From positions 62,001 through 126,000 of the forward strand of contig JAQTLV010000003.1 of NCBI GenBank assembly GCA_028714675.1: a stretch of DNA of 64,000 nucleotides, given 5' to 3'. Origin of the DNA: Sulfurovaceae bacterium. Lineage in GTDB: Bacteria > Campylobacterota > Campylobacteria > Campylobacterales > Sulfurovaceae. The position numbers were made by a program, and so were the translations under genes. The notes under the pieces are model-generated. The model was not told the DNA's origin and did not search any database. It saw nothing but the letters and a program-made list of their open reading frames with translations. Positions 47,477 to 62,802 of this stretch are shown here, one piece after another; the first letter of the stretch is position 1, and the number at the start of each line of letters is the position of its first letter.

Positions 47477-48196
47477 ATGATTATTATACCAGCTAGAATA
47501 GGTTCAACACGTTTTCCTAATAAAATTTTAGCAGATATTGATGGAATACCAATGGTTATAAGAACAGCAAAAGCAGTAGATGGCATCGATGATGTTTTAA
47601 TTGCAACGGATAGCCAAGAAGTTGTGGATATAGCTAAACAATTTGGCTATAAAGCAACATTAACAGACAAAAATCATCAGAGTGGTACAGATAGGATTTT
47701 TGAAGCAGCAAAAAAGTTTGGACTTAAAGATAATGATATAGTTATAAATGTACAAGCAGATGAACCTTTTATAGAAGAGAGTGTTGTAAAAGCTGTTTAT
47801 GATTTGACAAAAAGAAATTTAGGCAATGAAAAAATTTTAATGAATTCTTGCTATAAAATATTGAATTCAAGTCAAGCTGATGATCCAAATTTGGTAAAAG
47901 TAGTTACTTCTTTGAGCGGTAATGCACTGTATTTTTCAAGGTCAAAAATACCATATCCAAGAGATCACCATTTTGATGAATTTAGAGGGCATATAGGCAT
48001 ATATGGTTTTAGTATGAAAAGTTTGGAAGTATTTTGTTCTTTAGAGACATCTTCAATAGAGCATATTGAAAAACTAGAACAACTTAGGGCTTTGCATAAT
48101 GATTATGATATATCAATGGTAGAAGTTGAAACAAATAGTTTTGGAATAGACACCCAAGAAGATTTGGAGAGAGCATTGAAATTTCATATACTTTAA
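47477..48196 (+). CDS. kdsB: CMP-KDO synthetase
   Basis: Activates KDO with CTP for lipopolysaccharide inner-core assembly. The 239-residue product has the nucleotidyltransferase loop PARIGSTRFPNKILADIDG, DEPFIEESVV, YFSRSKIPYPRD, and the C-terminal GIDTQEDLERA. Start ATG has AAAGGTTTAAA ahead. It converges with the MSHA-type operon at a shared stem-loop. Confidence 0.96.
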   Translation: MIIIPARIGSTRFPNKILADIDGIPMVIRTAKAVDGIDDVLIATDSQEVVDIAKQFGYKATLTDKNHQSGTDRIFEAAKKFGLKDNDIVINVQADEPFIEESVVKAVYDLTKRNLGNEKILMNSCYKILNSSQADDPNLVKVVTSLSGNALYFSRSKIPYPRDHHFDEFRGHIGIYGFSMKSLEVFCSLETSSIEHIEKLEQLRALHNDYDISMVEVETNSFGIDTQEDLERALKFHIL

Positions 48197-48219: not shown

Positions 48220-48242
48220 ATGATGAGAAAAATTCTCATCAT
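48220..48242. terminator. Terminator between kdsB and the MSHA-type operon
   Basis: A perfect 10-base-pair stem (ATGATGAGAA with TTCTCATCAT) and a 3-base A loop. Its right end overlaps the stop codon of the MshG-like gene. It probably ends both the kdsB transcript and the eight-gene operon. Confidence 0.7.
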
Positions 48243-49489
48243 CCTCCTTTTGCAGCTTTTCCAAGATCCCACATAGGCATAAATATACCAAGTGCCATAA
48301 GTAATACTAGGCCTGCTATGAAGAACATCATTATAGGTTCAATATAAGAGCTTAAATTATCTATAATTGATTGAAATTGCATATCATAGTATTGTGTAAC
48401 TTTTTCTAGCATACCGTCTAGTTGACCACTTGCTTCTCCTGCTCTTATCATTTGAAGTAGCATATTTTCAAATAGTCCGGTTAGTTCAAATGATTCTGAC
48501 AAAGTAAGACCCCTGCCTATGTTTGCATTAACACCTTCCAGTTTTTGTCTAATTGCAAGATTATCAACCATACCTACAGCAGTATTTAGTGCTTCAGAAA
48601 CAGGAATTCCCGATCTTATAAGTTCACCCAAAACAAGAGTATATCTATGCATTGTTGATAAAAATATAACTTTATTGATTAAATAAAATCTTTTATTTAT
48701 CAAAATAGTATCTACTTTTAATTGAAAGTCTCTATTATTTTTATAATAGTATATTGTACCATATATTAATCCTATTAATCCAATCAAAACAAAAAAACCA
48801 TAATTGCTTAAGATATTCTCTAGCCCTAAAAGTATTTTTGTAGGGATGGGTAATTCTGTTTTAAATTGTGCAAAAATTTCTTTAAATTTTGGAACTACTA
48901 CTACTATTAAAATTGTAAATGCAATTGCCATGGCAGTAAGTGTAATCATTGGATATCTGATAGCTTTTTTGAATTTGGCACTATTGTCTCTAATATTTTC
49001 CAATATACTAGATAGTTTCATAAAAGAAGCCGCAAGACTACCAGTTCTCTCACCCAATTTTGCCATTGCAAGAGTTATATGTCCAAATTCATTTCTGTAG
49101 TTCTCCATACTTTCGGATAAACTTTTACCAGCATCTATATCGCTACTTATATTGTAATATATATCACTCAATTGTTTATTTTGAGTATTTACCGAAACAT
49201 CTGCTAGTGTATCATGTATTGGAAGTCCTGCATCTGTCATGACAGCAATTTGCCTAATTGTTGCAATTTTATCATTAATATTTATACTTTTTTTAAATTG
49301 CTTTTGCAATTGTTGCATAAAGTTTACAGCTATTACATCTAGTGGCGCAGATGTCGACTCTACTTTTGTTATTATTGCGGCATTGTATTTATGCTTGATT
49401 TTATCTTTTGCATCATTTTTATTTATTGCTTCTATGATGTGAGCTTGTCTTTTGCCTTTGTGAATTAAAGAAACTTTAAAATATCCCAT
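48239..49489 (-). CDS. mshG: Type II secretion/MSHA inner-membrane platform protein (MshG/GspF-like)
   Basis: Polytopic platform protein that couples the assembly ATPase to pilus or pseudopilus growth. The 416-residue product has two GspF repeats (about 70-190 and 270-400), e.g. IRQIAVMTDAGLPIHDTL and STMHRYTLVLGELIRSGIPVSEAL. Three membrane segments: about 180-205, 228-250 and 385-408. AMALGIFMPMWDL-like ending (MALGIFMPMWDLGKA) is typical. It directly follows the MshE-like gene. In Campylobacter the counterpart would be CtsF, a DNA-uptake protein. Confidence 0.88.
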   Translation of the reverse strand: MGYFKVSLIHKGKRQAHIIEAINKNDAKDKIKHKYNAAIITKVESTSAPLDVIAVNFMQQLQKQFKKSININDKIATIRQIAVMTDAGLPIHDTLADVSVNTQNKQLSDIYYNISSDIDAGKSLSESMENYRNEFGHITLAMAKLGERTGSLAASFMKLSSILENIRDNSAKFKKAIRYPMITLTAMAIAFTILIVVVVPKFKEIFAQFKTELPIPTKILLGLENILSNYGFFVLIGLIGLIYGTIYYYKNNRDFQLKVDTILINKRFYLINKVIFLSTMHRYTLVLGELIRSGIPVSEALNTAVGMVDNLAIRQKLEGVNANIGRGLTLSESFELTGLFENMLLQMIRAGEASGQLDGMLEKVTQYYDMQFQSIIDNLSSYIEPIMMFFIAGLVLLMALGIFMPMWDLGKAAKGG

Positions 49490-51226
49490 TTATAACCTCG
49501 CTACTCTATATACTTCTTCTACTGTTGTTTTACCTTCTAGCGCTTTTTTTATTCCATCTTCAAACATATTCATAAAACCATCTTCCATAGCTTGCTTTGT
49601 TATATCTTCTTTTGATGCGCTCGCAGCTATCATACGAGATAATTTTTCTGTAATTACCAAAACCTCAGATATCATTTCTCTTCCTGCATATCCAGAATGA
49701 CTACACTCTTTACATCCAGCTCCTTTGTAAAACATAGGATTTTCTGGAAGATATTCTTTGATATCTTCTAATAAATGTTCTGGCAGTTCAACTATTGTTT
49801 TGCAATGAGAGCATACTTTTCTAACAAGTCTTTGTGCTTGAATTGCTATAAGAGCACCACTAACAAGATAGCTTTCTATTCCCATATCTAAAATTCTAGT
49901 AACCGCACTAATTGCATCATTGGTATGAAGAGTTGAAAGAACTAAGTGACCAGTAAGGGCTGCTTGAATAGCAATTCTTAGTGTCTCGTGGTCCCTTATT
50001 TCACCTATCATTATTTTGTCAGGATCTTGTCTTAGGATAGATCTTAGTGCAGTTGCGAATGTAAGATTAGCATTATTGTTAACTTGAACTTGTTGAATTC
50101 CATTTAATTGGTACTCAACGGGGTCTTCCACTGTGATTATTTTGTCTTTAACATCCCTGATTGCATTTATAGCACCATAAAGAGTAGTGGTTTTACCACT
50201 ACCTGTTGGTCCAGTTACTAATACTATTCCGTATGGTACTTTTATAGCTTCTGAGAACTTTTCAAATGAAGTTTTATTCATTCCCCCATCTTCAAGTTTT
50301 ATCATTACTTTGGATTTATCTAATATCCTCAAAACTATAGATTCTCCAAGTAGTGTAGGAAGTGTAGATACCCTAAAATCGTATTCTTTATCATTCACCA
50401 ATTTTGTAAATCTTCCATCTTGTGGCTTTCTTTTTTCAGCAATATCCAAATTTGATAAAAGCTTCATTCTAGAATCCAATGGAGGAAAAATATCTTTATC
50501 AAAACTATATAACTCTCTTAATAATCCATCAACTCTGATTCTAACTATACAGCTTTTTTCTAAAGCCTCAATATGTATATCACTAGCTCCTGCATATATA
50601 GAAGCTTTGATGATGATATCTATGAGTTTAACTATAGCGGAATCTTCTTCATTATCAAAATCATTTCCTTTTTGTGTCAAATCTTTTCTTATTTCAGATA
50701 TGATATTTTTGATACTCTCACTAGTTTCAAGTCTATGGAGATTTTGAGCAATTAGCTTTGGTTGAGCAAAAGCAACAATTATGGGTTTTTTAGGAAACAG
50801 CCTTTGCAATGCTTGTTGTGCTTCAATATCAAAAGGGTCTGCAAATGCTACTGTAATACTTAAATCACTTTCTTCTATTGGGATAGCACTATATCTCATT
50901 AATTGTGAAAATGGAAACTTTAAAAAAAGTTTCATGTCAATTTCAAAACCATCCAAATTAATATATTTAATATTAAGCTCTTGGGCTAATTTTTCAAGAA
51001 GACTGCCTATTTCAAAACCATCCATATGATCTAATTGCTCAATTGCAATTTCACCTTGTCTCACTTTTTTGACTAGAAAATTTTCTAAAACATCTTGTTT
51101 AAGAAAATTTTCTGAGATAAGATTTGCAAAAGTTATTTTTTTGGGTGGTCTCATTCGCACAAGTTTTTCAATATCTGATTTTGTGATAATATTTTCATTT
51201 ATCATCATTTGAATAACTTTTACCAT
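49490..51226 (-). CDS. mshE: Type II secretion/MSHA assembly ATPase (MshE/GspE-like)
   Basis: Cytosolic hexameric ATPase. The 578-residue product has an N-terminal MshEN-type domain (about 1-170), Walker A VTGPTGSGKTTTLY (about 334-347), Asp box and Walker B IMIGEIRDHET, His box GHLVLSTLHTNDA, and a zinc Cys4 set (CSHC and CKEC). AGGGGG precedes the ATG. GspE, PilB and CtsE are the alternatives; the gene order favours MshE. Abuts mshG. Confidence 0.9.
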   Translation of the reverse strand: MVKVIQMMINENIITKSDIEKLVRMRPPKKITFANLISENFLKQDVLENFLVKKVRQGEIAIEQLDHMDGFEIGSLLEKLAQELNIKYINLDGFEIDMKLFLKFPFSQLMRYSAIPIEESDLSITVAFADPFDIEAQQALQRLFPKKPIIVAFAQPKLIAQNLHRLETSESIKNIISEIRKDLTQKGNDFDNEEDSAIVKLIDIIIKASIYAGASDIHIEALEKSCIVRIRVDGLLRELYSFDKDIFPPLDSRMKLLSNLDIAEKRKPQDGRFTKLVNDKEYDFRVSTLPTLLGESIVLRILDKSKVMIKLEDGGMNKTSFEKFSEAIKVPYGIVLVTGPTGSGKTTTLYGAINAIRDVKDKIITVEDPVEYQLNGIQQVQVNNNANLTFATALRSILRQDPDKIMIGEIRDHETLRIAIQAALTGHLVLSTLHTNDAISAVTRILDMGIESYLVSGALIAIQAQRLVRKVCSHCKTIVELPEHLLEDIKEYLPENPMFYKGAGCKECSHSGYAGREMISEVLVITEKLSRMIAASASKEDITKQAMEDGFMNMFEDGIKKALEGKTTVEEVYRVARL

Positions 51227-51253
51227 TTTTAAAACCCCCTAATATAATTTATT

Positions 51254-51985
51254 TTATTTATTTTCATTTTCAAATTCATTAATGATATTTAATGCCTCTT
51301 TTGAACCCGTTTTTGAAGCATAGGCTTTTAGAATTCTAGTAGCTTCATTTTTGTCGCCTAAATAAAATTTTGATTTTGCCATTATAATCCAACTATCTTC
51401 AATTTCCTCTGTTATTTTGTTAGTTTCAATTGCCCAAAATAATGCTTTATTATACTCTTTTTTTTCATAATAACTAATAGCTAGAAACAGAGAATCATTT
51501 GGATCGTGAGATTCATTAAATCTTTTCATTATATCAATAAGAGTAGCAACATTTGATTCTTGTGTTAATTTAACTTTTTTCTTAATTCGTTCCGGTTGTT
51601 CATAAGTTTCACTATTTTGTTGCACGATTTTATTATTTGAGTTTTGAACATTTGAAAAGGATGAATCTTTAGATGACAAATTTTCAATTTGAGTCACAAT
51701 TTGCTCACCTTGTTGTTTCACATTAGAGGTTAGTAAATTCTTTTGTGCAGACTGTCTCGTTTTGATTATTGTTAAATTTGGCTCAAGTATATTTAAATTT
51801 GCATTTATAACAAGTTTTAGTTTTTTTTCATTACTTGAGATTTGGTTATCTTTTCTTATTTTATTGAGATAAAATTTTGAAACAAAAAATAGTCCCAAAA
51901 AACAAATTAAAATAAAAGCATATATGCCATATTTTTTTGTTTTATATTTAACTAGTTTTTGTTCTAAAATATTTATACTATGCAT
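51254..51985 (-). CDS. MshN-like membrane-anchored TPR protein
   Basis: A 243-residue protein with a membrane helix (about 19-40), a Gln/Asn/Ser-rich spacer (about 50-150) and a C-terminal TPR-like region (about 158-240, DSLFLAISYYEKKEYNKALF and KFYLGDKNEATRILKAYASK). This layout and its place between the ATPase MshM-like and MshE-like genes match MshN of the MSHA operon. In Campylobacter the equivalent slot is filled by CtsX, a membrane DNA-binding protein. It overlaps the upstream gene by 8 bases. Confidence 0.65.
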   Translation of the reverse strand: MHSINILEQKLVKYKTKKYGIYAFILICFLGLFFVSKFYLNKIRKDNQISSNEKKLKLVINANLNILEPNLTIIKTRQSAQKNLLTSNVKQQGEQIVTQIENLSSKDSSFSNVQNSNNKIVQQNSETYEQPERIKKKVKLTQESNVATLIDIMKRFNESHDPNDSLFLAISYYEKKEYNKALFWAIETNKITEEIEDSWIIMAKSKFYLGDKNEATRILKAYASKTGSKEALNIINEFENENK

Positions 51986-52793
51986 TTATATATCCAAGTT
52001 TTAGTCCAGCTAATTGTAAAAATTCATAAAAATTCTTATCTAAATGGGATATCTTTGAAGGTTGTGTATCAGCATAAAACTCACATATTTCAAAAACAGT
52101 ATACATTAGTTTATTGCATTCTCTGAAATTTCCATCTGTTAGTTTAAAAATTAATTTAAAATCCCTATCTTTTATATTATTCAAAATATCAAATAAATTT
52201 TTCTTTAAAAGTTTTTTATTTATATATGTTGTTTGTTCTTCCTTGTCTACATTTTTTAATTCAATCATTTCCCATATTCTAGAACTAAAATGTGTGCGAG
52301 CTAATAATTCCTCTTTGTTATTTTGATGAAGAGCCATTATGAATTTAATAGAACCAGTATCAGAGAGTAATCTAATTTTTTCTAAAATGCTAATATCATA
52401 CATTTGTGCTTCATCTAACAAAAAAATAAATTCTTTCTTCTTAAAAATACTTTTTGCATATTTTACTAAACCCAAAAAATTTACTTCTGAATTATCAGGG
52501 ACATTTTCTCCAGTAAATGCATAAAATATCTGTTCTAGAAATTCTTTTTCACTGTTGGATGGAGTATCCATATAAAAAAGCTCTTTTTGGTATTTTTTTT
52601 TCTCAAAAAGATTTTTCATTAGTATGGATTTTCCAGTACCCGGCCTCCCATATAAAATAATCATTTTAAATGGTTTATCAATAGCATCAACCAACTGCTT
52701 AAAGGCAATCATTGATGACTCTAATTCAATATAGTCCTTAGTGATTATATTATCTAAAAAAGCATTTTTTGCTATTTTAAATCTATTTTTCAT
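51978..52793 (-). CDS. mshM: ExeA/MshM-like AAA ATPase
   Basis: An AAA ATPase of the ExeA/MshM type, 271 residues. Walker A GRPGTGKS (about 50-57), Walker B FIFLLDEAQM (about 124-133) and sensor IKFIMALHQNN follow in order. In MSHA and T2SS systems it may position the secretin or platform; in Campylobacter the equivalent CtsP is needed for natural transformation. It overlaps the secretin gene by 11 bases. No membrane segment. Confidence 0.82.
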   Translation of the reverse strand: MKNRFKIAKNAFLDNIITKDYIELESSMIAFKQLVDAIDKPFKMIILYGRPGTGKSILMKNLFEKKKYQKELFYMDTPSNSEKEFLEQIFYAFTGENVPDNSEVNFLGLVKYAKSIFKKKEFIFLLDEAQMYDISILEKIRLLSDTGSIKFIMALHQNNKEELLARTHFSSRIWEMIELKNVDKEEQTTYINKKLLKKNLFDILNNIKDRDFKLIFKLTDGNFRECNKLMYTVFEICEFYADTQPSKISHLDKNFYEFLQLAGLKLGYINA

Positions 52794-54381
52794 TAAGTAT
52801 ATCGTATCCTAAATCTTTCATAAGAGCATCTTTTGGTGTTTCAACAATATGCGGAGTTATTATAAGCACCAATTCTTCAGTTGTTTTTATATTTTTTTCT
52901 CTTTTAAACGCATAGCCAAGAATTGGAATATCTCCCAATAATGGAACTTTATTTGACTCAATACCTTCTTTTGTGGAAATTAGCCCACCTAGTATTGCGT
53001 GTTCACCATCTTTTACTTTTATAACAGAAGCCATTTGTCTTCTTACTAAATCTGGTGGCATAGTTCTTTTCCCATCACTAGAAGTGGTTGTATTTATTGT
53101 ATCAGAGATTGAAGGATTTATTTTAAGCGTTATCATACCATTGTCATCAATTTCTGGAGTAATATCAAGAAGTATTCCAGCAAATACAGAATCTATCGTT
53201 TCACCTTGTGCAGATGTTGATCCGCCACCACTAGCTGTTGTGCTAGCAGTAGTTATTTTATAAAATAACTCTTTGCCTACACTTATAAGTGCTGGTTGAT
53301 TGTTTAGTGTCATTACTCTTGGACTTGATATATTTTTGACATTGCCTTGTGTTCCAAGAAATTTTATTATATCGGCTACGTCTACACTACCAAAAGCAAA
53401 TATCTCAGCTCCTTGCATATTAAATGCTGGATCTAAAGTCCACTCTGTCGGTACTCCGCTTTCTAATTTACTCGCATAGATATTTTGCCCTGCTTCAAGT
53501 GTTGTTGCAACTTTTAAGTTACCCAAACTATATATTTGACTCCAATCTATGCCAGTTGTTCTACTGTCATCAAAATTTACAGACATTATTCTAACATCTA
53601 TTAGAACCTGTTTTTTTATTTGTGTTGAAAGAGTATCAATATATTTTGTAACTTTATCTATTTGTGATGGTGTTCCAGTTACTGTTATCATTCCAGCCTC
53701 TGCATTAACTATTGGAGCAACAGGATTATATTCCCATATTTGACCATCTGGACCAACCCAAGATTTATCTGAAGTTTTTGAATAATGGGTACTTCCATCT
53801 CCAGCACTTACTAAGACTCTTTGGATTTCAGCGCCTATGCTTGACCAAAATAAAAACTCATCATTACTTTCTATGCTTATACCAGTTCTTGATTCTGCTC
53901 CACCGCTACTTGATGCACTCGCAGAACCATTACTGCCACCTGTTGTAGTTGCAGAAGTTCCTGAATTTGAGTTAGCTATTGTAACGTGGGCATTACTTTT
54001 TCCAATACGATTGCCAGCTATATAATGAACTCTAAATGTTTTAGTTATTAGATATGAAATGGTAAGTTTATTTCCCTCTATTGAATAATATAAATCATTG
54101 TCTTTTAGTACTGTATTTAAGAAACTCCTCATTGTAGCATTTTTTAATTTTACATAATAGAGCTTTTTATTCATTCTTAATTTTGCAGCCTCATCTTTTA
54201 CAATTACGCTAAGCCCACAAGTATCTGCTAGGTTGTCAACCATATCCCCAATTGTTAAACTGCTATCAGCTGTTACGCTAAAAAGTCTTGTATCACATTG
54301 CCCAGCATTTGCCAAATTGCTCATTAATGCAAAAAACACAAAACCTTTTAAGATTTGTTTGCTAATACTAATTAATTTCAT
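52783..54381 (-). CDS. mshL: Secretin (MshL/GspD/CtsD-like)
   Basis: Outer-membrane channel of a pilus, T2SS or DNA-uptake machine. The 532-residue product has a signal peptide (about 1-26), an STN-like domain (about 33-110), a Gly/Ser/Ala-rich stretch near 135-165, an N1-type domain to about 265 and a secretin domain (about 330-520). That domain holds HAILGGLISTKEGIESNKVP and the C-terminal ELVLIITPHIVETP. The shorter N-terminal part and the order of neighbours point to MshL rather than GspD. GGAAGG precedes the ATG. Confidence 0.9.
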   Translation of the reverse strand: MKLISISKQILKGFVFFALMSNLANAGQCDTRLFSVTADSSLTIGDMVDNLADTCGLSVIVKDEAAKLRMNKKLYYVKLKNATMRSFLNTVLKDNDLYYSIEGNKLTISYLITKTFRVHYIAGNRIGKSNAHVTIANSNSGTSATTTGGSNGSASASSSGGAESRTGISIESNDEFLFWSSIGAEIQRVLVSAGDGSTHYSKTSDKSWVGPDGQIWEYNPVAPIVNAEAGMITVTGTPSQIDKVTKYIDTLSTQIKKQVLIDVRIMSVNFDDSRTTGIDWSQIYSLGNLKVATTLEAGQNIYASKLESGVPTEWTLDPAFNMQGAEIFAFGSVDVADIIKFLGTQGNVKNISSPRVMTLNNQPALISVGKELFYKITTASTTASGGGSTSAQGETIDSVFAGILLDITPEIDDNGMITLKINPSISDTINTTTSSDGKRTMPPDLVRRQMASVIKVKDGEHAILGGLISTKEGIESNKVPLLGDIPILGYAFKREKNIKTTEELVLIITPHIVETPKDALMKDLGYDILNEK

Positions 54382-54386
54382 AATTA

Positions 54387-54809
54387 CTACCTTCCTTGAA
54401 TTTTAATCAAATTTTTTTCTTTTGAACTGTTGTTTAAAAAAACCTTTTTGGTATTTTTACCATTATTTAAATAAACACAATTCGAATTAATTCCAGTTAT
54501 CTTATAACTTCCAGTTGTATCCCCAACTTTTTTCCATCCTCCGCCAATAAATGCTTTTCCATTCATAATAGCACTTACTCTAGTAGCATTTGATTCCTCA
54601 CTATCTCCTTTTGGCATAATAATTGCACCAGTAGTTTTATTTCTATCATAATAAACAAAAGGATCAGATACCTTATTGAAAAGGGATCCATCTAGCCCAC
54701 CTCTTGGAGATTGTATTTGAGATACCTTTTGGTCTATATCTTTTATACTAAGTGTTGTCGCAAGTAGTATAGTAGAAAAAATTGCCCATAAAAATATTGC
54801 ATGTTTCAT
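54387..54809 (-). CDS. MshK-like periplasmic protein
   Basis: A 140-residue exported protein with a signal peptide (about 1-17, ending LLATT). The C-terminal half has a GspC-like beta pattern: FIGGGWKKVGDTTGSYKIT then CVYLNNGKNTKKVFLNN, as in MshK and PilP-type pilotins. In C. jejuni the matching position is ctsR. No lipobox is seen. It overlaps the MshJ-like gene by 4 bases. Confidence 0.65.
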   Translation of the reverse strand: MKHAIFLWAIFSTILLATTLSIKDIDQKVSQIQSPRGGLDGSLFNKVSDPFVYYDRNKTTGAIIMPKGDSEESNATRVSAIMNGKAFIGGGWKKVGDTTGSYKITGINSNCVYLNNGKNTKKVFLNNSSKEKNLIKIQGR

Positions 54810-55465
54810 TTGTTATTTATCCCCCATACCGAGATGTTTAAATCAGCTAAAATAGCAGATCTTTTTTTGTTAACTTTTAGTTTACTGCCATAAATATCAG
54901 TTACCAGTCTATTTTGTTCTATATCATTCATAAATTTCAATATATCTTTGTATTCACCTTGACATTTAATTTTTATTTCCAATACATGACCAAAAGTAGT
55001 TTGGTTTGATTCGGTAAAATTATTATCCAATTTTAATATGCTAATATTATGATTATAGGCTGTTTCAGTAATGGAATCTAAAAAAGTAGACCAACTTTTT
55101 TTATCAAAAATCATATCTTCTAGTTTGCGCATACTACTGTTAATTAAATTTGTTTTATTTTCTAAATCCAATATAGTTTGTTTCTTTTGCGCAACCTCAC
55201 TTGATAATTGCTTGACCTTAAAGTCCTTGTCTCCATTTACGGTAATTGAAGACATGTAATTTTCTTGTTCATCTAGAATTTTTTGTGTCTTTTCTTTTTC
55301 TGTAGTTGTAAAATTATACCTATCTTCAGCTATTGGTAAAAGAATATAATATGCCAAGAAGGCTATTAATAGACCAGCACCATAAATCATGATATTTTTT
55401 TCATTTTCCTGTTTAGCATCTAGATAGATATCTAACTTTTCGAGTATATTTTCTAAAAAAATCAT
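54806..55465 (-). CDS. MshJ/PilO-like inner-membrane protein
   Basis: A 219-residue protein with a single membrane helix (about 25-43), a coiled-coil periplasmic stretch (about 55-115) and a small C-terminal alpha/beta domain (from about 135) with LEIKIKCQGEYKDILKFMND. This is the PilO/GspM-type shape, and its position between MshI-like and MshK-like genes matches MshJ. 4-base overlaps on both sides. Confidence 0.68.
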   Translation of the reverse strand: MIFLENILEKLDIYLDAKQENEKNIMIYGAGLLIAFLAYYILLPIAEDRYNFTTTEKEKTQKILDEQENYMSSITVNGDKDFKVKQLSSEVAQKKQTILDLENKTNLINSSMRKLEDMIFDKKSWSTFLDSITETAYNHNISILKLDNNFTESNQTTFGHVLEIKIKCQGEYKDILKFMNDIEQNRLVTDIYGSKLKVNKKRSAILADLNISVWGINNK

Positions 55466-56997
55466 TTTAACTCCATTGTAAGCACACCTTGATAGAATGA
55501 GCCATTTTGATCTTTTTCCAATAGTTTCATATTGATGTTTTGTATATTTATATTTTTCTCAGAGATAAACTTGATAAATTCTGTTATTTTTTTATCATTA
55601 TCACCAACTAATCCAATAGAGAAATTATTATCTTTATTTTGGAATTTTTCTATTGTTACACCAAATTTTTTCAAATCATTTGATAAATCATAAAATATTT
55701 TCGACTTCATTGTATAATTCACTTTTTTATTAAATATGCTATCTAATGTTTGCGCTTTTGAATTATAAGCTTCTCTTTTTGCATTTTCCTCTACACCAAG
55801 TATTTTCAATTCATTCTCTTTCTCAGAAATGGCTTTTTTATAATTTTCAACTTGTGGTGCTAACTCTTCTGATGTTCTAGTATTTGAATACGATTGTATA
55901 TCATTTATGTAAGAGTATAATAAATAATAAAGAGGCATAGAAAGACCAATAACACTTGCCACGCCAGCTGCTATTAAAAATTTTCCACCAGTTCTTTGAG
56001 CAAAAGATGGAGGTCTTTGAAATTGAGTGAGGTTTACCATTGAATTTTTATCATCGACGTAGTCAATGGATGTTTTTGCTAGCATTAATTCAAGAGGAGT
56101 TGATTTGGTATTGTTATTATATGTAAAACCTAAACCAAAATCCCAAATTTCTGAATTAGTTCCAATATAGTTCAAAATATATTTATGACAAAGAGGAATA
56201 TCGCCTATATCACTACCTATGAATATTTTATCTATTACTTCAATTTTTAATGCTCTTTTGGAATACACTATTACATCATTAACTGACAGGAAAAAACTTC
56301 CAAATATTTTGGCTAATGATTGTGATACATTCGTATCTATCCCATATAGATTGTCTTTTAAAAGCAACTCTAAAAATGAGCCTCTCTCTATGTGATTTCC
56401 AATCGCCTCGCAATATTTATCGTGTAATTTATCTATAGAATAGTCTAAATTTTTACTATACATAAAATTACCATCTTTATAAATGGCTATAAATGCATCT
56501 TTGTGCATTAAATATATGAAAATATGTACTTCATTTGAACTCAGTGCATTATTTGTATATAGAGTTTTGCACAATAAAGGAGCAGGTGCAATAAGATCTA
56601 TGTACTTTATATTTTTTTTGTGATTCTCAAATAAGGTATAATTTTCTTCAGATTTTGTAGTAAAAACATGGAATAATCTTTCGTCAGTTGCACTTTCTGA
56701 TTCAATATAACCTATTAAGTTTTCACTCTCTTCCTCGCTTATTCCAAGTTCTTCTTGTATTTTTATTTCTATGGCACTTGCCATATCTTCATCTGGAATT
56801 CTACGACTCATATTGATTGAAGCAATCAAAAGATCTTTATTTGAGATGAATGATGAAACAAATTGATTGTCGGAATAAGATGGTTTAGGTATCAATTCTA
56901 TTGAATTGTTTTTAACGATAGAATACCTGTTTTCATAAGGGTCTATCATAAGAATGCTACTAAAAGGCGATTTAGATGATTGTATCTTTTTAAACAT
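55462..56997 (-). CDS. MshI-like protein with PilM/PilN-type parts
   Basis: A roughly 511-residue protein starting the operon. The first 340 residues look like an actin-like cytosolic PilM/GspL domain, with the stretch EDMASAIEIKIQEELGIS. A membrane helix at about 345-368 is followed by a coiled coil (about 375-425) and a PilN-type periplasmic end. This fused architecture and its first position fit MshI. ATG 56997 is preferred because AAAGG lies 5 bases before it, while the GTG at 57003 overlaps that site. Confidence 0.68.
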   Translation of the reverse strand: MFKKIQSSKSPFSSILMIDPYENRYSIVKNNSIELIPKPSYSDNQFVSSFISNKDLLIASINMSRRIPDEDMASAIEIKIQEELGISEEESENLIGYIESESATDERLFHVFTTKSEENYTLFENHKKNIKYIDLIAPAPLLCKTLYTNNALSSNEVHIFIYLMHKDAFIAIYKDGNFMYSKNLDYSIDKLHDKYCEAIGNHIERGSFLELLLKDNLYGIDTNVSQSLAKIFGSFFLSVNDVIVYSKRALKIEVIDKIFIGSDIGDIPLCHKYILNYIGTNSEIWDFGLGFTYNNNTKSTPLELMLAKTSIDYVDDKNSMVNLTQFQRPPSFAQRTGGKFLIAAGVASVIGLSMPLYYLLYSYINDIQSYSNTRTSEELAPQVENYKKAISEKENELKILGVEENAKREAYNSKAQTLDSIFNKKVNYTMKSKIFYDLSNDLKKFGVTIEKFQNKDNNFSIGLVGDNDKKITEFIKFISEKNINIQNINMKLLEKDQNGSFYQGVLTMELK

Positions 56998-57061: not shown

Positions 57062-57949
57062 TTAAAATATATAACCAAAATTTTCTAATTCCTCTTTATT
57101 TTTACTCCATCCGCTTTTTACGGACACAAAAAGCTCTAGATGGATTTTTTTACCAGAAAATTTTTCTATATTTTTACGGGCATGTATTCCAATTCTTTTT
57201 ACACCTTCTCCATTTTTGCCAATAATCATTTTTTTTTGTATGTCTTTTTCTACAATTATGGTTGCCAAAATTTTATCTAAGTGTATGTTTTCCTCTATCT
57301 TTTCTATTATAACATCGCTTTCATATGGTATTTCATCACTCATATTCTCAAAAATAGATTCTCTTATAAATTCTTTATAAATAGAGCGAATATGCTCTGT
57401 AGTTAAAATTTCATCATCGAATAGCCAAGGATGTTCTGGCATATATCTAGATACAAGTTCTATTAATTCATTTTTGCCGACACTTTTATTTACAGAAAAA
57501 GGTATGATTGCTTCAAAATGTTCTTGAAATTTTTGGTATTCTCCAAGTTTTTGTAATAGTTTGGCTTGCGGAATTTGATCTATTTTATTTAATACTATTA
57601 TATGTTTTGTTTTCTTTCTTTCATTTAGGTGTAAAAATTTTTCATATTCATCTATTTTGTCCGTTGCTGGAGCTACAAATAAAATAAGATCACAATCACC
57701 TATAGCTTTCAATGCTTCTTCGAGCATAAATTTATTTAATAACTTTTCTTTTTTATGAATACCAGGAGTATCTATGAAAATTAATTGCGTATTTCCATGC
57801 ATAACTATTATCTGCATCCTTTTTCTAGTAGCTTGTGCCTTTTTTGATACCATGGCTACTCTTTCGCCAACAAGCAAGTTTAAGATAGAACTTTTTCCTG
57901 CATTTGGTCTTCCAACTACAGCTATAAAGCCAGCTTTTTTATTTTCCAT
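57062..57949 (-). CDS. era: Ribosome-assembly GTPase Era
   Basis: Binds 16S rRNA and helps mature the 30S subunit. The 295-residue product has GTPase motifs VGRPNAGKSS (about 12-21), DTPGIHK and NKID, and a C-terminal KH domain (about 200-295) with IGKNGEGVKRIGIHARKNIE. AGGAA precedes the ATG. It lies 39 bases after rplI on the same strand. Confidence 0.96.
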   Translation of the reverse strand: MENKKAGFIAVVGRPNAGKSSILNLLVGERVAMVSKKAQATRKRMQIIVMHGNTQLIFIDTPGIHKKEKLLNKFMLEEALKAIGDCDLILFVAPATDKIDEYEKFLHLNERKKTKHIIVLNKIDQIPQAKLLQKLGEYQKFQEHFEAIIPFSVNKSVGKNELIELVSRYMPEHPWLFDDEILTTEHIRSIYKEFIRESIFENMSDEIPYESDVIIEKIEENIHLDKILATIIVEKDIQKKMIIGKNGEGVKRIGIHARKNIEKFSGKKIHLELFVSVKSGWSKNKEELENFGYIF

Positions 57950-61938: not shown

Positions 61939-62802
61939 ATTAAAAAATTATTTCAAAGTTTTTCTTTAAAGCATCCATACCTAGATTTTGAACAATTAAT
62001 CGATTATTTTTCTATATTTGGTGGAACGGATGAATTGGAGCTTGATTATTTCGCTACTCTCTTTGAGTTTATTGAAAACAAATTTATTCGTAACCTTGAA
62101 ATTATATCTTTACAAATAGAGCCAACATATATATTGGAAAGCCCATATAGAGAAGTTCTTATGGCAATAGCAAAGGGGGATGGAAAGATATATTCATCTA
62201 TAAAAAAAGCTAAGCTAAATGAACATTTGGGCGAAAACATAATAAAAGATTTAACAAAATTAGGAATTATTAGGCTAGAAGAATCAAAAGAATTAGAATC
62301 AAATTCTTTCAAAAGATACAGAATACAATCAAAGCTTAGGTTTAAAAAACCATTTTTGAGATTTTGGTTTGGTTTTGTTGAGCCTTTCAGAAAAGAGTTG
62401 GAAGCTGGTGTTTACGAAAATTTTATAGCAAATTTTAAAGCACATTATGAAAGACTAAGAAGTCTTGTTTTTGAGCATCTATCAGAAGAGTTTTTATTAG
62501 ATTACTATAACAATAAAGGTATTAATATTATTTTTTCTGGTAGTTATTGGGACAAGGATAATGAATTTGATATAGTTGCTATTACAGAATCAAAAGAGAT
62601 TATTTTGGCTGAATGTAAATACAAAGATAGAAAAGTATGCAAAAATGAATTAACAAAATTAAAATTAAAAGCAACACAATCTAACTTAACAGCAAAACAT
62701 TGGGTACTCTTTTCTAAACAAGGATTTTCAATTGAGTTGAAAAATTCTAAAGATAAAAATTTACTGCTTTTTGATTTACAAGATTTATCACAATGGAATT
62801 AG
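61939..62802 (+). CDS. Stand-alone DUF234-type protein, no ATG start
   Basis: A 287-residue protein resembling the C-terminal part of archaeal-type ATPases (DUF234) without the ATPase. The middle has RFKKPFLRFWFGFVEPFRKE, and the C-terminal part has FDIVAI and ILAECKYKDRKV, a PD-(D/E)XK-like pattern (Asp, Glu-x-Lys). The frame is open from 61927. AAAGG at 61928-61932 lies 6 bases before ATT 61939 (ATA 61936 next to it), so an ATT or ATA start is proposed; the first common alternative is TTG 62035, which would lose 32 residues. Convergent with mltG. Confidence 0.62.
   Translation: MKKLFQSFSLKHPYLDFEQLIDYFSIFGGTDELELDYFATLFEFIENKFIRNLEIISLQIEPTYILESPYREVLMAIAKGDGKIYSSIKKAKLNEHLGENIIKDLTKLGIIRLEESKELESNSFKRYRIQSKLRFKKPFLRFWFGFVEPFRKELEAGVYENFIANFKAHYERLRSLVFEHLSEEFLLDYYNNKGINIIFSGSYWDKDNEFDIVAITESKEIILAECKYKDRKVCKNELTKLKLKATQSNLTAKHWVLFSKQGFSIELKNSKDKNLLLFDLQDLSQWN

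Follow-up and report, generated by a model that had tools for sequence, protein, structure and literature searches.

Which machine is encoded by a pilus-type operon that contains no pilin gene? The question is raised by a window of 64,000 nucleotides (positions 62,001 to 126,000 of contig JAQTLV010000003.1, assembly GCA_028714675.1) from a Sulfurovaceae bacterium, a Sulfurovum-like member of the Campylobacterota whose genome (G000) is assembled as 1.75 Mb in 18 contigs. Eight intact minus-strand open reading frames (ORFs) at 48239–56997 follow the order I-J-K-L-M-N-E-G, as in the mannose-sensitive haemagglutinin (MSHA) pilus locus; no pilin gene was found in the operon or after G, where kdsB stands instead. 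An earlier note on this DNA had described the same arrangement, and the ORF coordinates agree with it; it had suggested a pseudopilus or DNA-uptake machine with an MSHA-type core. With moderate confidence, we favour the reading that the operon supplies the motor and pore of a retractable MSHA-type pilus that serves mainly in DNA uptake.

The gene order is not peculiar to this genome. Preceded by era and often followed by kdsB, it recurs in about 100 loci among the Campylobacterota genomes and loci that were fetched (some are cut by contig ends), a recurrence far beyond chance. The same order is found in the classical MSHA locus of Aeromonas, where, however, a distinct PilN-type gene separates I from J. 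Comparison with two Sulfurovum relatives gave nonsynonymous divergence (dN) of 0.03–0.24, synonymous divergence (dS) of at least 0.68 and dN/dS of about 0.02–0.21 across the eight genes, which are under purifying selection. The nearest named loci, from Sulfurovum sp., have secretins 80–83% identical to L.

The secretin, L, passed the NCBI curated model TIGR02519 (pilus_MshL; 267.6 bits, cut-off 250.2), whereas it reached 172.9 bits against the GspD model (cut-off 351) and was also below the PilQ cut-off. In the secretin tree a branch supported at 100/98 sets the Campylobacterota proteins, together with the MSHA secretins of Aeromonas and Legionella, apart from the others. Approximately unbiased (AU) tests rejected trees in which the Campylobacterota proteins were held with the type II secretion system (T2SS) or with type IVa pili (T4aP) (p=0.003 each). 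The motor, E, matched the Pfam families T2SSE (1e-133) and MshEN (1e-16), as well as the MshE N-domain structure 5htl (E 7e-5). G matched T2SSF (E 8e-50) and was below all subfamily cut-offs.

Profile comparisons with hhalign gave a similar picture for K and M. The K profile matched a Legionella MshK-like protein (96%, E 1.6e-9) and Aeromonas MshK (93%, E 2.8e-7), and did not match PilP, GspC or HofP. The M profile matched Legionella and Aeromonas MshM (98.5 and 97.8%, E 2e-15 and 1e-12), with E. coli GspA at 38% only; the P-loop and a DEA(Q/N) motif are conserved in M. Since L, K and M match MSHA proteins, the secretin tree agrees and E carries an MshEN domain, the sequences support an MSHA-type core, as had been proposed.

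The remaining subunits were less readily classified, and their I, J and N profiles gave nothing significant against MshI, MshJ and MshN in hhalign. J matched Pfam PilO above the cut-off (E 1.7e-6), the family that Aeromonas MshJ also matches, and N gave an above-cut-off match to the tetratricopeptide repeat (TPR) family ANAPC3 (E 5e-7), Aeromonas MshN likewise being a TPR protein. No sequence family was recognised for I in the Pfam search. Its predicted structure (AlphaFold, 57 sequences; mean predicted local distance difference test score 86) has an actin-like PilM-fold domain at about 14–315, a long transmembrane/coiled helix at about 336–426 and a small C-terminal alpha-beta domain that is PilN-like by topology alone. 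In a Foldseek search with this model, PilM structures ranked first, including the PilM:PilN complexes 5eou (E 2e-13) and 2ych. We therefore read I, from its model, as a probable GspL-like PilM-PilN fusion in the MshI position. The small genes were thus not placed in unrelated families; I, J and N correspond to MshI, MshJ and MshN in position, although not by profile match.

The motor differs from that of V. cholerae in its N-terminal motif. In V. cholerae MshE, Arg9 of RLGDLLV is needed for binding of cyclic di-GMP (c-di-GMP) (PMC4624772). In a set of 83 sequences (a few perhaps truncated at the start), this motif was absent from the window's E and from the other era-type motors, except that two divergent era-type motors (L024, L025) have a RIGDRL variant. 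It is present in Aeromonas and Legionella and in all three second-copy MSHA motors found in relatives (L029, L033 and L035; genome and locus numbers carry the prefixes G and L). RLGDLLV is a trait of V. cholerae-type motors and not part of the 2019 model of MSH systems. Because the motif is missing, the era-linked motor has probably lost the c-di-GMP control of true MSHA motors.

These second MSHA systems (L033 on G016:C17, L035 in G020 and L029 in G025) have an ATPase with intact RLGDLL. In L033 and L035, I-J-K-L-M-N-E-G comes after a large protein (LamG-type in L033) and prepilins of the D, O, P and C types, so that the pilin genes adjoin the machine. Loci of both the era type and the second-copy type (L019, L020, L022, L027, L029, L034 and L159) encode, between N and E, a protein of about 180 aa that looks secreted and has no Pfam family; neither the window nor its closest relatives have it.

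The pilins expected elsewhere in the genome were found there. Three class III prepilins, MshA-like by N-terminus and context only, lie between uvrB and priA (G000:C1:367.5-369.1 kb) in the order uvrB–three pilins–priA–ispG–dnaB–comEC, with the trio about 5 kb from comEC. Pilins are likewise found upstream of priA in 17 of the 20 relatives examined, the exceptions being G023, G027 and G029. A second set (C1:442-449 kb) begins with a secreted protein of 1460 aa with a weak Calx-beta match, a candidate tip protein in the Q position, and continues with prepilins resembling D, O and P. The C-like prepilin is at C8:42 kb, close to a contig end. The O, P, C and D proteins matched the minor pilins of the complete loci L033 and L035 (E 6e-20, 1e-13, 7e-10 and 1e-8, respectively), and the matches to Aeromonas pilins were mostly N-terminal. 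The two genomes with both kinds of machine, G016 and G020, each have a second MshO gene away from the complete locus in addition to the one within it, which supports assigning the scattered pilins to the era-linked machine. The window's genome yielded a single GspE/PilB-type ATPase and a single PilT, so the era-linked machine is its sole filament machine of that type.

A link to DNA uptake comes from comparison with Campylobacter jejuni, in which loss-of-function mutations in ctsRDPXEF leave a nonfunctional DNA uptake system (PMC10893306). The published order R-D-P-X-E-F corresponds to K-L-M-N-E-G in the window. Cj0683, a pilin-like competence protein of C. jejuni described as unique to Campylobacter, is encoded directly before priA (PMC10046745). 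This is the site at which the window's genome has its MshA-like pilins. We presume that uvrB is also near this site in C. jejuni. Both organisms have scattered pilins (ctsG, ctsT, ctsW and Cj0683 in C. jejuni), and ComEC, required there, is present here, as is DprA. Compared by published descriptions, the window's proteins are longer, PilM-PilN and PilO subunits lie within the operon, and the genome has several MshA-like pilins and a PilT. In a reduced cts-like locus (L030), which we guess to be from a Campylobacter, the secretin nests with an era-linked secretin (support 98/99), and the encoded proteins are similar in size to the published Cts proteins of C. jejuni (PMC8308473).

Combining these elements, we infer retraction, DNA uptake and regulation of the machine as follows. 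E would drive assembly of an MshA-like pilin from the uvrB/priA trio on the platform G, on a filament started by a tip complex of D-, O-, P- and C-like minor pilins, perhaps with the 1460-aa protein. I, J and K would align the motor with the secretin, M and N would serve pore assembly, and the filament would exit through L. PilT, encoded elsewhere, would retract it, much as a shared PilT does for the MSHA pili of V. cholerae (PMC9815625). Extracellular DNA would be bound and pulled through L into the periplasm and then taken in by ComEC, as in Campylobacter Cts. Without a c-di-GMP switch the motor would be outside that control, and surface attachment may be a second role. The genome has three candidates for an MshA-like major pilin, PilT and a large protein that may form the tip, which makes a retractable pilus more likely than a pseudopilus; that part of the original proposal was too narrow, and DNA uptake is our best guess at the function.

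Several points weigh against a DNA-uptake pilus. MSHA of V. cholerae serves attachment, not DNA uptake. The ATPase tree groups E with MSHA (support 86/87), but this lean is weak and not decisive (AU p=0.09 against T2SS and 0.24 against T4aP). The Cts link is a positional argument from published gene order, supplemented by L030 and the relative G029, and does not amount to proven orthology. Finally, no prepilin peptidase (Peptidase_A24) was found in the assembly. In relatives the peptidase gene lies between uppS and a permease-like gene, in a block coaBC-uppS-peptidase-permease (L123, L124, L126) that was not found in the window's genome. As the essential gene uppS is missing along with it, we rejected true absence of the peptidase and consider an assembly gap likely.

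The foremost alternative is an MSHA-like pilus for attachment to elemental sulfur, minerals or similar surfaces, with DNA uptake minor or absent. The MSHA-type core, PilT and the large Calx-beta candidate tip protein beside D-O-P would all suit such a pilus, and a study of Sulfurovum indicum reports MshL as upregulated on elemental sulfur, which fits attachment (PMC10045233). However, the motor here has lost the c-di-GMP motif that marks attachment-type motors and that the relatives' second, pilin-linked MSHA loci retain, while the order-wide operon matches the C. jejuni cts order and comEC lies near the pilin locus. We regard attachment as the main function as unlikely.

A T2SS-like pseudopilus machine for protein secretion is largely refuted and very improbable. 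Genes of this kind are often annotated as T2SS; among subfamily models E and G score highest with GspE and GspF, though below cut-off, and the locus shares with classical T2SS (Gsp/Xcp) a secretin, GspE/GspF-like parts and the GspL-like fusion architecture. Against this, the secretin is excluded from T2SS by the AU test, K and M are MshK and MshM, the locus lacks GspC and the G-K set, and relatives with a T2SS-type system carry a separate locus for it (L128, L163). A firm placement with T2SS, named in the earlier note as a refuting outcome, was thus rejected for the secretin and left undecided for the ATPase. Nor is this a classical T4aP (PilMNOPQ/PilBCD), as L is outside the PilQ clade by the same test and K is not PilP. 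Still less probable is a non-functional relic or incomplete machine, for which the unlinked pilins and unrecovered peptidase might speak, since all genes are intact with low dN/dS, pilins occur elsewhere in the genome and the missing uppS points to an assembly gap.

Features of the locus, with window coordinates and assignments
Feature	Position	Strand	Assignment
I	55462..56997	-	ATG start, GTG start 6 nt upstream possible; putative PilM-PilN (GspL-like) fusion, MshI position
J	54806..55465	-	PilO-family periplasmic alignment protein, MshJ position
K	54387..54809	-	MshK homologue, CtsR position
L	52783..54381	-	MshL-type outer-membrane secretin, CtsD position
M	51978..52793	-	MshM-type AAA ATPase, CtsP position
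N	51254..51985	-	membrane-anchored TPR protein, MshN/CtsX position
E	49490..51226	-	extension ATPase, MshEN domain without RLGDLLV c-di-GMP motif, CtsE position
G	48239..49489	-	inner-membrane platform protein, T2SSF family, CtsF position
era	57062..57949	-	conserved upstream neighbour, outside machine
kdsB	47477..48196	+	convergent neighbour downstream of G, outside machine
stem-loop	48220..48242	.	10-bp stem, 3-nt loop, where G and kdsB converge; weak terminator candidate

The operon is compact: by coordinates, neighbouring genes overlap at four junctions (by 4, 4, 11 and 8 nt), are 5 and 27 nt apart at two and abut directly at one. Upstream, era is on the same strand at a distance of about 65 nt from I. 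A stem-loop said in the earlier note to end the operon exists, but is weak evidence for a terminator because it extends into the final codon of G, is scored as a terminator on the kdsB strand only and is of a type no more frequent than chance (2 sites found, 3.1 expected in shuffled sequence). A promoter scan gave matches only moderately above shuffles and was uninformative.

The machine is present in nearly all of 30 genomes of the same order (one of which, G008, is incomplete). Two apparent absences (G027 and G014) were rejected, as their contigs show the machine split over contigs. In G029 there is a reduced version at another site, adjoining three pilin-like genes, and G023 and G024 have distant secretins only. 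Three further loci are noted for their records. L051 (WAPZ01000846.1) has a Sulfurovum-type secretin (61% identity) on a contig labelled Heimdallarchaeota, which is probably misbinned. In L021 (G012:C1:589-591 kb) a frameshift or assembly error divides the secretin gene into two ORFs that overlap, and L036 (NZ_AP026896.1), a 4.9-Mb 'Aeromonas caviae plasmid' with a classical MSHA locus, looks like a mislabelled chromosome.

How much of this is new? The MSH class of type IVa filaments was defined by Denise et al. (2019), who report MSH systems in Epsilonproteobacteria and a model that allows the MshA pilin as a loner (PMC6668835); the core itself is therefore not new. MshL and MshM annotations also appear in reports on C. 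ureolyticus (PMC3758288) and S. indicum (PMC10045233). The reported systems belong to the same phylum and are probably the same or sister loci, but the pilin location, the fusion, the motif loss and the Cts link are not described in the text available. With Vibrio and Aeromonas MSHA the system shares the I-J-K-L-M-N-E-G order, homologous K, L and M, the secretin grouping, MshEN in E, minor pilins C, D, O and P, and a peptidase and PilT from outside the locus. It differs in its scattered pilins, the PilM/PilN fusion in I, the lack of a visible mshF, an E without RLGDLLV, a shorter N and a candidate tip protein before D rather than a Q after P. The scattered pilin set, the putative fusion, the apparent motif loss and the proposed Cts descent are what we regard as new.

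Tentatively, we propose as a real possibility that the ancestral machine for DNA uptake in Campylobacterota was the era-linked MSHA-type pilus, and that Cts of C. jejuni descends from it in stripped-down form. A pilus for attachment would then have turned to competence as its motor lost control by c-di-GMP, and a second MSHA pilus, of the c-di-GMP type, would have been retained in some lineages. No statement that Cts descends from an MSHA-type pilus was found in the literature searched, coverage of which was partial.

The DNA-uptake machine of C. jejuni has been described as type II secretion-like, and its parts are partly known. If it did descend from an MSHA-type pilus, its missing parts would become predictable: PilM-PilN-like and PilO-like proteins, minor pilins of the D-O-P kind and, in the Cj0683 position before priA, a major pilin. 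The phylum would also offer, within a single comparison, a view of how an attachment pilus controlled by c-di-GMP loses such control.

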